Of a stretch of DNA of 64,000 nucleotides, positions 43,063-53,929 are shown in pieces (the first letter of the stretch is position 1; each line of letters opens with the position of its first letter). Origin of the DNA: Ruminiclostridium cellulolyticum H10. Lineage in GTDB: Bacteria; Bacillota; Clostridia; Acetivibrionales; DSM-1351. The DNA lies in contig NC_011898.1 of assembly GCF_000022065.1 (NCBI RefSeq), forward strand, positions 3,909,501 to 3,973,500, read 5' to 3'. Below the pieces are notes generated by a model. That model saw only the letters and a list, made by a program, of their open reading frames with translations. It made no database searches and was not told the DNA's origin. The translations under genes and the position numbers were made by a program.

Positions 43063-44667
43063 ATGCCCGGAATGCCAATTTATCAAGATTCTCCGACGAA
43101 TCTAAAAAATCAGATTTTTGCAGCAAACGGATCATCTGTAGTTAATGTTCAGGCTGACAATACAGGTAGATTAAAGGTTGCAACCGACAGTTCGTCCCCA
43201 CTCGCTGTTGACGTAGATGAAGCTGTAAACAGTATAACTGTTTATGGCAGTGACGGTACAAGTAACCAAGTTTTAAGAACAACTGCTACGGGTCAGCTGG
43301 ATATCAGGCCTCTTACCGTTTCAGATACTGTCAATGTGAGTATTACTCAAGCAGATGACAGTATTACTGTCTATGGTAATGACGGTACTGCAAACCAGAT
43401 AATTAAAACTAACTCCACAGGCCAACTGGATATCAGACCTCTGACTTCTTCTGATACCGTCAGCGTTGATGTTTCCCAAGCTACCGATAGTATTGCTGTT
43501 TATGGTAATGACGGTACTGCAAACCAGATAATTAAAACTAACTCCACAGGCCAACTGGATATCAGACCTCTGACTTCTTCTGATACCGTCAGCGTTGATG
43601 TTTCTCAAGCTACCGATAGTATTGCTGTTTATGGTAATGACGGTACTGCAAACCAGATAATTAAAACTAACTCCACAGGCCAACTGGATATCAGACCTCT
43701 GACTTCTTCTGATACCGTCAGCGTTGATGTTTCTCAAGCTACCGATAGTATCGCTGTTTATGGTAATGACGGTACTGCAAACCAGATAATTAAAACTAAC
43801 TCCACAGGCCAACTGGATATCAGACCTCTGACTTCTTCTGATACCGTCAGTGTTGATGTTTCCCAAGCTACCGATAGTATCGCTGTTTATGGTAATGACG
43901 GTACTGCAAACCAGATAATTAAAACTAACTCCACAGGCCAACTGGATATCAGACCTCTGACTTCTTCTGATACCGTCAGCGTTGATGTTTCCCAAGCTAC
44001 CGATAGTATTGCTGTTTATGGTAATGACGGTACTGCAAACCAGATAATTAAAACTAACTCCACAGGCCAACTGGATATCAGACCTCTGACTTCTTCTGAT
44101 ACCGTCAGCGTTGATGTTTCTCAAGCTACCGATAGTATCGCTGTTTATGGTAATGACGGTACTGCCAATCAGATAATTAAAACTAACTCCACAGGCCAAC
44201 TGGATATCAGACCTCTGACTTCTTCCGATACCGTAAACGTTGATATTTCTCAATCTACCGATAGTATTGCTGTATACGGTAGTGACGGTACTGCCAATCA
44301 CGCTTTATTAACTGATTCGGCCGGAATACTACAGGTTAACAATACCCGGACCTTTACAACTGCTACTCTTACAACTTTAGAAACAACAGACAGCTATCAA
44401 TATACAACCCAACAGGAGATTGCTCAACTGAACACCTATCAGTTCTTTGTAAAGAATACAGGAGATACAAACAGTGTTACACTTGTTGTTGAATTGAGCC
44501 CAAATGGTACAGACTGGGTAGTTGACAGTGACGAACGTCCGATTACCTTCGGGGCTGCAACAATTATAACTTCGAACAAGTTCCTAAGATATATAAGATT
44601 AGGATACAAGTCCACAAGTACTGGTGCCAGCACAACTATAAGTGCTATTTTCCAAGGCCAAGGCTAA
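43063..44667 (+). CDS. Repeat protein with nine 43-residue tandem units and a DUF6385-like C terminus
   Basis: A 534-residue protein with no signal peptide. Residues 1-49 form a leader (MPGMPIYQDSPTNLKNQIFA). Nine tandem units of 43 residues follow (positions 43210-44370); six central units are nearly identical, with the pattern ATDSIAVYGNDGTANQIIKT and a DIRPLTSSDTV segment. The last 105 residues form a beta-rich domain (FFVKNTGDTNSVTLVVELSP with FLRYIRLGY) like the DUF6385 module found in clostridial surface and spore-associated proteins (family link by memory). Function unknown; a spore-coat or exosporium role is a guess. Strong AAAAGGAG ribosome site. Confidence 0.85.
   Translation: MPGMPIYQDSPTNLKNQIFAANGSSVVNVQADNTGRLKVATDSSSPLAVDVDEAVNSITVYGSDGTSNQVLRTTATGQLDIRPLTVSDTVNVSITQADDSITVYGNDGTANQIIKTNSTGQLDIRPLTSSDTVSVDVSQATDSIAVYGNDGTANQIIKTNSTGQLDIRPLTSSDTVSVDVSQATDSIAVYGNDGTANQIIKTNSTGQLDIRPLTSSDTVSVDVSQATDSIAVYGNDGTANQIIKTNSTGQLDIRPLTSSDTVSVDVSQATDSIAVYGNDGTANQIIKTNSTGQLDIRPLTSSDTVSVDVSQATDSIAVYGNDGTANQIIKTNSTGQLDIRPLTSSDTVSVDVSQATDSIAVYGNDGTANQIIKTNSTGQLDIRPLTSSDTVNVDISQSTDSIAVYGSDGTANHALLTDSAGILQVNNTRTFTTATLTTLETTDSYQYTTQQEIAQLNTYQFFVKNTGDTNSVTLVVELSPNGTDWVVDSDERPITFGAATIITSNKFLRYIRLGYKSTSTGASTTISAIFQGQG
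43210..44370 (+). repeat. Nine tandem 129-bp units
   Basis: The element GACGGTA recurs at 43252, 43381, 43510, 43639, 43768, 43897, 44026, 44155 and 44284, exactly 129 bases apart. Units 3-8 differ by only a few silent changes such as GTTTCC/GTTTCT and AGTATT/AGTATC. Units 1, 2 and 9 are more divergent. This shows recent expansion by slippage or unequal exchange from the centre, with selection to keep the reading frame. Confidence 0.97.
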
Positions 44668-50421: not shown

Positions 50422-50542
50422 TCTTCAGGGCAGGGTGCGATTCCCTACCGGCGGTAATGTACTATTTAGTATTAGCCCGCGAGCGTTTTGCAGACATGGT
50501 GTGATTCCATGGCCGACAGTACAGTCTGGATGAAAGAAGAAA
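50422..50542 (+). promoter_or_regulatory. FMN riboswitch (RFN element)
   Basis: The conserved blocks are in order: GGGCAGGGTG with ATTCCCTACCGGCGGT, then AGCCCGCGAGC, then GCAGACATGGTG, ATTCCATGGCCGACAGT, and AGTCTGGATGAAAGAAG, which close the six-helix aptamer. FMN binding is expected to favour the terminator at 50573-50606 and switch off ribU. Confidence 0.95.
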
Positions 50543-50572
50543 CAGCAAATAAATATTATTTTGTTATTTGAT

Positions 50573-51195: not shown

Positions 51196-51426
51196 GGCTA
51201 TTTGGGTTATACCCTTTATGACTTTGAGGAAATGATTGCAATTGTTTGCTATAGCAATTATGATATATGTTATCAAAATTATTAAATATTAGAAATTACA
51301 TATTTACATTAAAATAATTTGCACGTATTATAATATATAACATCATATGCGTGACAAATGTCACATAGGCATCATAAGCCAATTATTATAATTTTGCTAA
51401 TGCAACAATTGCGGGGTGATATTGGT

Positions 51427-51726
51427 ATGGAATTTTGTAATAAATGCGGTTCTTTGAAGATTAACGGAAACTGCACCAACAAAAAATGTGATCAGCATGT
51501 TAAATCTATGGTAGAAATGGCTACAACTCAGCAAATTGAGTACATCAAAGAACTGGCAGAACAATTAAATGAAGATATCAGTGATATGAACTTTGAGAAC
51601 ATGACAAAAAATGATGCTTCATATCTTATTGATGATTATGTAGAACGGCTGGATGATAGCGATAAGAAATTAATAGCCGAAGATGAAATTCTTGATGATG
51701 ATGAAACTGACGAAGAAGAAGAATAA
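51427..51726 (+). CDS. Small acidic zinc-ribbon-like protein
   Basis: A 99-residue protein starting MEFCNKCGSLKINGNCTNKK with cysteines 4, 7, 16 and 21 in a C-x2-C ... C-x4-C spacing that suggests a treble-clef or ribbon zinc site. A helical middle (TQQIEYIKELAEQLNEDI, with the NASYLIDDYV helix) and a very acidic tail (EDEILDDDETDEEEE) follow. The longer frame from 51358 lacks a ribosome site; GGGGTGAT before ATG 51427 decides the start. It borders the DnaA-box-like array. Function unknown. Confidence 0.75.
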   Translation: MEFCNKCGSLKINGNCTNKKCDQHVKSMVEMATTQQIEYIKELAEQLNEDISDMNFENMTKNDASYLIDDYVERLDDSDKKLIAEDEILDDDETDEEEE

Positions 51727-51741
51727 AAGTATATTATGTTT

Positions 51742-51771
51742 AAAAAAGCGAGGTTAACTTCCTCGCTTTTT
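51742..51771 (+). terminator. Terminator, works in both directions
   Basis: Stem AAAAAGCGAGG/CCTCGCTTTTT with an 8-base loop and T runs on both strands, between the zinc-ribbon gene and the DnaA-box-like array. Confidence 0.85.
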
Positions 51772-51798: not shown

Positions 51799-52004
51799 TG
51801 TTGATAACTTCTTAATTACTTGTTAATTTTAATATGTGGATATGTTATACTGTTTATAAAAAATTGTGAATAACTTTAAAAACTCATGTGGATGAAGCAT
51901 TTCAAGCGTTTTTTACATACTTTCTAATATTGTTTTATATATGTGGATAATGTGAATAAATCTGTGCATAATTTAGAATATATAGTTCAATTAAGTGTGG
52001 AAAA
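51799..52004. other. Array of nine DnaA-box-like 9-mers (origin-like or DnaA-binding region)
   Basis: Nine matches to TGTGGATAA, all in the same orientation, start at 51799, 51835, 51851, 51865, 51887, 51942, 51951, 51963 and 51996. One (51942) is the perfect box; those at 51865, 51951 and 51963 fit TTATNCACA read on the other strand; the rest have one or two changes. Spacing runs from 0 to 46 bases, with a very AT-rich background around 51815-51865. No coding ORF lies inside. No dnaA or dnaN is in the window, so this is not the classic dnaA-linked origin. Confidence 0.65.
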
Positions 52005-52009
52005 GTGGA

Positions 52010-53929
52010 TTAATTTGAATATTTCAGACTGAATCCATATTGGAAAAGGGCATCGTATACTTCGTTATTATCCAACTTTTCAATGGTAATGGGAAGTTGT
52101 TCAACTGATTTAGGCCAGCTCACAGGCAACCGCCCCTTAAAATTGCAGTTTTCTCCGTATATAACCTGTGCAACAGCCCTTCCTTCCGTCCCCGGAAGCC
52201 ATGCCTCAACCATAGCATCCCACTTATTAATCTCATTTGTGATTATCCTTGGCCTTCCTGATACAAGAATTACAACTATAGGCTTATTTGATTGGTATGC
52301 AATTCGCAGTACTTCGGCATTCTCTTTAAAGGCCAGTCCGTCACTTAATCCGAGAGCTTTTTCATCGCCCTTTCCCTCGGCATAAGGGTGTTCTCCAAGA
52401 ACCGCTAGAACGACATCTGCCTCCTTTACCCTTGAAGGGTCAGTGATAATAAGGCCGCCTCCCTTGTCTGCCATTTCCTTAAATCCATCCAGAATAGTGG
52501 TACCACTCATCCACTTTTCGTCTCCATCATCCAGTCCTCCCTGCCAGGTTTTTGTCCAGCCGCCACATTGTACGCCAATATTATCAGAGGCTGGTCCAAT
52601 GACTGCAACTTTGTCTGATTTTTTTAATGGCAGTATTTTCCTCTTGTTTTTCAAAAGAACTAATGACTCCTTTACAGCCTGTTCAGCAAGTTGAACATTG
52701 GATGTCTGCCTGAGCTTATAGTTCTTATTTGTCACGTCTTTTCCTTCAAATTTACCTGTTTCCATTTTTACTCTTAAAACCCTCGAAACAGCATCATCAA
52801 TCCTGTCCATATTTACATCCTGCCTCTTCTGACTTGCTGCCTCAAGTAAACATTTATAGGTTTCCTTCCACCGCTTCCCTTCAACTAGTACGTCAATTCC
52901 GGCATTAACTGCATTTACTACCTTAGTATAAAGACTGTTCCCGTCCAGATATTCAACGCCCTCGTAGTCGCTGATTACAATTCCTTGAAAGCCTATATCC
53001 TGCTTAAGCTTATATTCTATAAGATCTCTTTCCGAATGGTTTTTTCGACCCTTTATACTGCTGTACGATACCATAATTGTTTTAACGCCTGATTTAACTG
53101 CATCCTTATAAACAGATATATATTTATCTTTAAGTTCTTCCGTGCTGATGTTTGTGTTTCCACGATCCAGCAGTCCGTTGGTACCTGAACCAAATTCAAC
53201 CGCTCCATCTGCCACGTAGTGCTTTGCACAGGCAATTATCCCTTTGTTCTGGAGTTCTGTTATCAAAGCAGTTGCCATCATAGTCACAAGATCTGGGGTC
53301 TCGCTGAAACATTCATAATCCCTTCCCCATCTTATGTCATTGCTTACTGCAACACACGGCGAAAATGTCCAATCTACTCCTATTGCTTTTAATTCATCTG
53401 CCACAGCAGCTCCGATTTGCCTTGTAAGTTTTCCGTTACGTGTGGCTCCCAGACTGATATTATGAGGATAAATAATGGTATCCTTCATGTTGTTGTTACC
53501 ATGAACTGCATCTGTGGCAAATAAAAGTGGTATTGACAATCTCGAATCATTTGCGGCCTTTTTATATGTTTCTATCATTGACCTCCAGCCGTCCGGATTA
53601 TTGTCCTTGGGAGCTGAACCACCTTCCGCAAACACACATCCAACACCATAGGTTTTTACATCATGAGCCGAAATATAGTCCTTTTCCGCCATAATCATCT
53701 GACCTACTTTTTCCTCCAATGTCATCTTGCTTATGTATGCTGATATATTATCCTTGATCGATTTTTGTTTATTGTATATTGCTGTTACTTCTGAATTATT
53801 TCCGCTGTTTGTGGAAATATAGGGTTTATTTGAAACCTTGCGGGTATTTGATCCGGTATTACTGCAGCAACATAGAGACATTGCCAGCAAAGTAGTCAGA
53901 AGTACTCTTCCCAGTCCTTTTAAGCTCAA
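52010..53929 (-). CDS. Exported GH3 family beta-glycosidase
   Basis: A 639-residue secreted or lipid-anchored protein (signal region ending LLAMSLCCCS; the lipobox is plausible but not canonical). The GH3 N-terminal barrel covers about 70-380 with KHYVADG near 240 and the nucleophile Asp321 in SDYEGVEYL (most family members have SDW). The C-terminal GH3 domain (about 430-635) has the VAVIGPASD segment and acid/base candidates nearby. This arrangement is that of exo-beta-glucosidases and related enzymes; substrate specificity is not decided. TTG start with GAGGTGAT ribosome site; promoter at 53961-53989. Confidence 0.9.
   Translation of the reverse strand: MSLKGLGRVLLTTLLAMSLCCCSNTGSNTRKVSNKPYISTNSGNNSEVTAIYNKQKSIKDNISAYISKMTLEEKVGQMIMAEKDYISAHDVKTYGVGCVFAEGGSAPKDNNPDGWRSMIETYKKAANDSRLSIPLLFATDAVHGNNNMKDTIIYPHNISLGATRNGKLTRQIGAAVADELKAIGVDWTFSPCVAVSNDIRWGRDYECFSETPDLVTMMATALITELQNKGIIACAKHYVADGAVEFGSGTNGLLDRGNTNISTEELKDKYISVYKDAVKSGVKTIMVSYSSIKGRKNHSERDLIEYKLKQDIGFQGIVISDYEGVEYLDGNSLYTKVVNAVNAGIDVLVEGKRWKETYKCLLEAASQKRQDVNMDRIDDAVSRVLRVKMETGKFEGKDVTNKNYKLRQTSNVQLAEQAVKESLVLLKNKRKILPLKKSDKVAVIGPASDNIGVQCGGWTKTWQGGLDDGDEKWMSGTTILDGFKEMADKGGGLIITDPSRVKEADVVLAVLGEHPYAEGKGDEKALGLSDGLAFKENAEVLRIAYQSNKPIVVILVSGRPRIITNEINKWDAMVEAWLPGTEGRAVAQVIYGENCNFKGRLPVSWPKSVEQLPITIEKLDNNEVYDALFQYGFSLKYSN

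Follow-up and report, generated by a model that had tools for sequence, protein, structure and literature searches.

A conserved, one-directional DnaA-box array outside the origin of Ruminiclostridium cellulolyticum contains a box triplet of recurring, polar geometry

The DNA analyzed here, called the window throughout, is a stretch of 64,000 nucleotides of the R. cellulolyticum H10 chromosome (bases 3,909,501 to 3,973,500 of a 4,068,724-bp contig). Positions 51799 to 52004 of the window hold a real, conserved DnaA-box array that is not the origin of replication, and the new part of the finding is the core of this array, a polar triplet of boxes that recurs in other genomes. Judging from the sequence, we consider it probable that the gap harboring the array is an extra-oriC DnaA-box cluster, which DnaA would bind cooperatively and in one direction and which would serve as an origin-proximal reservoir delaying re-initiation.

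Within these 206 bp, eight matches to TTATCCACA with at most one mismatch were found, all of them on the minus strand, with starts at 51799, 51835, 51865, 51887, 51942, 51951, 51963, and 51996. Only the box at 51942 to 51950 is a perfect TTATCCACA, and TTATNCACA is fitted by four boxes, the perfect one included, exactly as the earlier note on this DNA had counted (one perfect box and three further fits). The same note had listed nine box-like 9-mers pointing in one direction; the cluster and its orientation were borne out, but at one mismatch or fewer there are eight boxes and not nine, the closest candidate for a ninth being a sequence at 52004 to 52012 that has two mismatches (by eye) and overlaps the stop codon of the glycoside hydrolase family 3 (GH3) gene. 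The complete gap measures 283 bp, is AT-rich as had been claimed (75% AT), and contains eight minus-strand boxes and no plus-strand box. Dinucleotide shuffles of the gap (n = 20,000) gave a maximum of three boxes in total, versus eight in the real sequence, and shuffles of the whole window (n = 60) gave at most two boxes per 206 bp. The gap is bounded by a plus-strand open reading frame (ORF) of 122 amino acids and by the minus-strand GH3 gene; since these genes converge, neither neighbor has its 5' region in the gap. The features of the locus are as follows.

51358..51726, plus strand: upstream convergent ORF of 122 amino acids with four cysteines near its N terminus; homologue in place in 11/11 genus genomes.
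51743..51771, plus strand: terminator-like hairpin separating the upstream ORF from the array; one found versus 0.7 expected in shuffles.
51799..51807, minus strand: DnaA box TTATCAACA, one mismatch; in 10/11 genus genomes, with a two-mismatch form in the alignment in genome G003.
51835..51843, minus strand: DnaA box ATATCCACA within the invariant stretch TGTGGATATGT; in 11/11 genus genomes.
51865..51873, minus strand: DnaA box TTATTCACA; in 5/11 genus genomes (G000 and G004-G007).
51887..51895, minus strand: DnaA box TCATCCACA, one mismatch; in 1/11 genus genomes, that of R. cellulolyticum H10 only.
51942..51971, minus strand: core triplet, TTATGCACA-GAT-TTATTCACA-TTATCCACA in the minus-strand reading, with spacers of 3 and 0 bp (boxes at 51963-51971, 51951-51959, and 51942-51950).
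51996..52004, minus strand: DnaA box TTTTCCACA, 24 bp from the triplet; in 11/11 genus genomes with at most one mismatch (TTTTCCACA, TTGTCCACA, or TTATCCACA).
52010..53929, minus strand: downstream convergent GH3 gene; homologue in place in 11/11 genus genomes, in two frames in G006.

No Pfam family was matched by the upstream 122-amino-acid ORF. Of the two flanks named by the earlier note, the GH3 gene is in place, and the terminator corresponds to the hairpin at 51743 to 51771; this was reported on the plus strand only, and its description as bidirectional is at most plausible. With eight boxes in 206 bp at 107 kb from dnaA, the array falls under the definition of an extra-oriC DnaA-box cluster, which an excerpt of PMC7561715 gives as at least three boxes with a mean distance below 100 bp. 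An RNA element was rejected as the identity of the array because an Rfam scan of the surrounding stretch gave no match over it, the only match being an FMN riboswitch at the far end. This riboswitch (window positions 50442 to 50545) lies upstream of an ECF transporter substrate-binding gene identified by Pfam. Elsewhere in the window, positions 43063 to 44667 hold an ORF of 534 amino acids containing seven repeats that are nearly identical and each exactly 43 residues long; the strand opposite this ORF is open over 326 codons.

Three roles had been suggested for the array in the earlier note, namely, the origin, a second unwinding region, or a DnaA-binding control locus. The position of dnaA and the GC skew refuted the first. 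The dnaA gene starts at about base 27 of the same contig, placing the array about 107 kb to its left, and the statement that no dnaA gene is nearby is right for the 64-kb window. Clusters of four and three boxes with at most one mismatch were found in the rpmH-dnaA and dnaA-dnaN gaps, respectively (rpmH being recognized by eye). Sampling of the GC skew gave -0.192 for the final 20 kb of the contig and +0.205 for its initial 10 kb; along the right arm the skew is positive in all sampled stretches up to 1.77 Mb, and along the left arm all sampled values are negative, with the exceptions of the final 4 kb of the window (+0.04) and some patches of 2 kb within the window. The window therefore sits in the negative-skew half, with negative sampled skew on both of its sides, and the skew check that the note itself had proposed, sampled here over the contig, puts the switch at dnaA, far from the array. 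In Firmicutes, oriC (rpmH-dnaA-dnaN) lies at the GC-skew switch beside dnaA. The array resembles it in being a cluster of DnaA boxes, and at least 9 of at least 117 loci with the triplet elsewhere lie within 1 kb of dnaA, but the array locus itself has neither dnaA nor a skew switch. No triplet within four substitutions was found in the regions extending 20 kb to each side of the dnaA start of this genome. An AT-rich stretch dense in DnaA boxes is what an origin would offer, but with dnaA, the bipartite box clusters, and the skew switch all 107 kb away and negative sampled skew flanking the window on both sides, the array is almost certainly neither the chromosomal origin nor a second one. A second unwinding region found no support either, there being no lasting skew switch at the array. 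The change in gene strand along the window, taken before as a sign that replication leaves from within it, is the pattern to be expected with the origin 107 kb to the right. The third suggestion fared better: a control locus at which DnaA is predicted to bind is supported by conservation and by further occurrences of the core away from origins, both described below.

The array is present in the same gap of all 11 Ruminiclostridium genomes searched, with both neighbors in place, and each of these gaps contains between five and eight boxes, all on the minus strand and none on the plus strand. Plasmid iterons had been considered and were set aside once the flanks proved conserved in 11/11 genus genomes. 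In the 11-row alignment, 52/72 box columns are invariant versus 21/141 non-box columns beyond the hairpin, a comparison that is only indicative and overstates certainty, since the rows are related by descent. Spacers drift while the box columns stay conserved, and the stem of the hairpin is kept despite changed bases (by eye). The exact TTATNCACA triplet was found in 9/11 genus gaps, the outer box being altered in G002 and G009. In five genus genomes, the array lies at -107.3, -124.1, -124.5, -124.4, and -226.6 kb from dnaA, with the domain match used to estimate where dnaA starts in the relatives; the assemblies of the remaining six genomes consist of many contigs. In G002, the array is about twice as far from dnaA. 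In G006 (C84), seven boxes are kept even though the neighboring GH3 gene is broken into two frames.

The pattern of conservation also bears on whether the boxes could be similar-looking sites of another protein or a functionless relic. Binding of DnaA is predicted from the letters of the boxes, which leaves room for such a reading, but the boxes fit the DnaA consensus and are where conservation is concentrated, and the same core lies within 1 kb of dnaA at the loci mentioned above and of tsaD/gcp at at least 4 of the at least 117 loci. We thus regard another protein or a relic as highly improbable. The DnaA of this genome carries the Pfam DnaA helix-turn-helix domain with GGRDHTTV, which we take to be the motif contacting the DnaA box.

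The core of the array consists of three boxes, TTATNCACA-3 bp-TTATNCACA-0 bp-TTATNCACA, with start-to-start offsets of 12 and 9 bp, a geometry written (3,0) below. At up to two mismatches, this triplet was found in 135/393 genomes of the class, and the reversed control pattern had no match in the same 393 genomes. The triplet is absent at this threshold from the other 258 genomes, indicating that it is no general requirement. In order not to presuppose one spacing, we ran a scan for three TTATNCACA boxes on one strand with any spacers from 0 to 14 bp, which returned 59 rows from 52/393 genomes and none for the control. The (3,0) combination accounted for 28 of these rows, (0,3) and (2,2) for 4 each, and every other combination for at most 3; outside the genus, (3,0) made up 22/53 rows. 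Pairs of boxes gave a similar set of distances. Among the matches listed, which comprised 53 rows from the genus and 96 from 24 other genomes, the pairs outside the genus favored spacers of 0, 3, 12, 21, and 22 bp (72/96, with 15.5/96 expected if all 31 spacers were equal). In the relatives fetched, the triplet is mostly preceded by a further same-strand box at 21 to 22 bp, the spacer in R. cellulolyticum H10 being 24 bp. Over 81 rows (80 loci and the window), a same-strand outer box at 21 to 24 bp was present in only 17 and an opposite box at 28 to 29 bp in 21, showing greater variation in the outer boxes than in the core. Two more copies of the triplet, each with one mismatch, were found in the same genome at 3,864,950 and 421,100 when up to three mismatches were allowed. 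Among open-licence PubMed Central papers, we found no description of the tandem (3,0) triplet geometry and none joining the DnaA box with hibernation promoting factor or with cellulolyticum, and papers on DnaA-box clusters and Clostridium concerned the C. difficile origin only. The cluster figures for B. subtilis in the primary literature could already show the (3,0) spacing.

An exact triplet scan with one genome per species gave at least 117 loci in other genomes, nearly all of them in Bacillota (Clostridia, Paenibacillus, Listeria, and others), with three exceptions noticed (L103, L117, and L192). Among the matches listed, the module is mostly non-origin. The gene for hibernation promoting factor, hpf (Pfam S30AE), lies within 1 kb of the triplet at at least 22 of the at least 117 loci, its start always toward the triplet; the other genes at this distance include DUF1294 (at least 11), dnaA (at least 9), polC (at least 8), and tsaD/gcp (at least 4). 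These families were named by Pfam on one member each, and dnaA by likeness to the DnaA of this genome; genes at the loci are longest-ORF calls, and some gene names come from reading the translations. The hpf and dnaA counts use all of the at least 117 loci, while the counts of outer boxes, spanning ORFs, and skew signs use 80, the first 80 including 2 that are the same gap in Ruminiclostridium cellobioparum. At 16/80 loci, the triplet is covered by an ORF of at least 80 codons, some such ORFs being surely spurious. Of the relatives fetched, 15/20 have the triplet upstream of hpf.

At hpf, a promoter role for the triplet would be natural, and at the array itself the positions of gene and hairpin suggest that the GH3 transcript may cross the boxes before reaching the hairpin. 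DnaA might accordingly act here mainly on transcription of a neighbor or on an antisense or 3'-end transcript, but both neighboring genes end toward the gap, and we consider such a main role unlikely. A palindrome like CACAAAACAGGTGTTTTGTG (at most two mismatches) was seen in 16/20 fetched relatives (L196-L209, L212, and L215, most of them loci upstream of hpf), directly following the triplet in those inspected, and also in the hpf cluster of this genome (L008 near 6130, at 421 kb); it is absent from the gap in the window and may be the site of a second protein.

Further clusters of DnaA boxes occur in the R. cellulolyticum H10 genome. Those given here were drawn from sampled stretches and exact-site lists, and there are possibly more.

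421 kb: sister cluster upstream of hpf.
936,301-936,550 (L009:5301-5551): sister cluster of six boxes in the convergent gap between tsaD (gcp) and an SLT-domain gene (Pfam).
3,865 kb: sister cluster flanked by an RNase III-domain gene and an exonuclease/endonuclease-family gene (Pfam).
4,042 kb: sister cluster with neighbors without annotation.
4,046 kb: sister cluster upstream of a QRPTase (nadC-type) gene (Pfam).

The tsaD cluster occupies the same place as the gcp/ydiF site of B. subtilis, and three of its boxes are adjacent in the reverse spacing order, 0 and then 3. In eight genomes that were placed against dnaA, the TTATNCACA strand of the triplet runs along the replication fork in 17/18 rows, the exception being a triplet with two mismatches in G005 (at 564,254), beside the tsaD position. 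At the 75 non-dnaA loci among the 80, the skew sign was matching in 49, opposite in 16, and within 0.05 of zero in 10. Since the sites are related by descent, this orientation bias is a lead and not proof. As a separate observation, 36/48 exact TTATCCACA sites of R. cellulolyticum H10 are oriented against the fork, opposite to most triplet modules, in a count that sets the terminus at 2.0 Mb and includes the boxes of the modules themselves.

The array shares several traits with the extra-oriC clusters of B. subtilis (notably gcp/ydiF), namely, several boxes in about 200 bp, a location outside oriC, and more than one cluster per genome, and like gcp/ydiF it lies between two convergent 3' ends. 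It differs from these clusters in that all of its boxes point one way, and a place between a 122-amino-acid ORF and a GH3 gene is not among the top regions shown in the part of PMC4447404 cited here. That part counts the gcp-ydiF gap, with its convergent 3' ends, among eight high-affinity DnaA regions of B. subtilis and reports that ATP-DnaA binds 16-fold more DNA there than ADP-DnaA does at 55 nM (PMC4447404). According to excerpts of two reviews, titration by six DnaA-box clusters is the model proposed for B. subtilis, deletion of the clusters leads to early initiation, and one re-inserted cluster partly restores initiation timing (PMC5295017, PMC13220808). Another statement in one of these excerpts gives the clusters no significant role in initiation (PMC5295017), and about 10-fold overproduction of DnaA is described in the other as causing no over-initiation (PMC13220808), which argues against simple titration in B. 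subtilis.

For the R. cellulolyticum array, we favor a reservoir that would operate as follows. Nucleation of DnaA would take place at the perfect box together with the two boxes in tandem with it, and DnaA would bind the tandem boxes cooperatively, head to tail, and in one direction. The array would be copied soon after each initiation, and its binding capacity would thereby be doubled; it is from this early duplication that the reservoir effect would arise, as the doubled capacity would lower the amount of free, probably ATP-bound, DnaA and re-initiation would be delayed. By these steps, the array may help to time replication, possibly with a preference for ATP-DnaA. Several results count against this reading, namely, the roughly doubled distance from dnaA in G002, the altered triplet of two genus genomes, the 258/393 class genomes lacking the triplet, and the ORFs covering it at 16/80 loci.

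We also considered that the array does more than store DnaA and alters its nucleotide state, by ATP hydrolysis as at E. coli datA or by ADP release as at DARS. The triplet has a fixed, polar geometry ((3,0) in 28 versus (0,3) in 4 of the 59 rows of the any-spacing scan), which is more than simple storage should need. The regulators seen in the genome point the same way: a search for the YabA family gave no match in this genome, with a positive control in B. subtilis and L. lactis, and the only DnaA-ATPase-family match besides DnaA is an IstB/DnaC-like ATPase, the gene of which adjoins a DnaB_2 (DnaD-type) gene near 43-45 kb, so that no Hda-like protein was seen. The E. coli elements, examined at what we take to be the map positions of datA, DARS1, and DARS2, resemble the array in being non-coding clusters of DnaA boxes, datA lying outside oriC and DARS1 and DARS2 setting DnaA activity. 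The regions examined nevertheless differ from it in layout: the datA region has no (3,0) triplet within four substitutions, and DARS1 and DARS2 differ in box orientation and spacing and likewise have no triplet within four substitutions. A link to datA or DARS by sequence layout was thus not found at this threshold. E. coli datA moreover needs IHF, as stated in an excerpt of PMC5295017. The part of PMC13220808 cited states that B. subtilis has neither datA nor DARS and that what regulates the nucleotide state of DnaA there is unknown. On balance, we hold a role of the array in switching the nucleotide state to be doubtful and prefer the reservoir.

More broadly, and as a tentative proposal, box-3-box-0-box could constitute a defined DnaA element of Bacillota, lying mostly outside origins and found in this gap, at hpf, at the RNase III-domain gene, and at other loci, with its box strand usually along the fork. 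Such an element might template a single directional oligomer of ATP-DnaA and might be the functional counterpart of datA and DARS in bacteria in which neither an Hda-like protein nor YabA is seen; its presence at hpf would link the status of DnaA to ribosome hibernation. How DnaA is controlled in bacteria without the Hda, SeqA, and datA of E. coli is only partly understood, and the portion of PMC4447404 cited here considers the regions available too few to learn which features confer a preference for ATP-DnaA. The triplet, recurring as it does in 135/393 genomes of the class, provides a small and exact DNA module on which such a preference can be tested, together with a conserved locus open to deletion.
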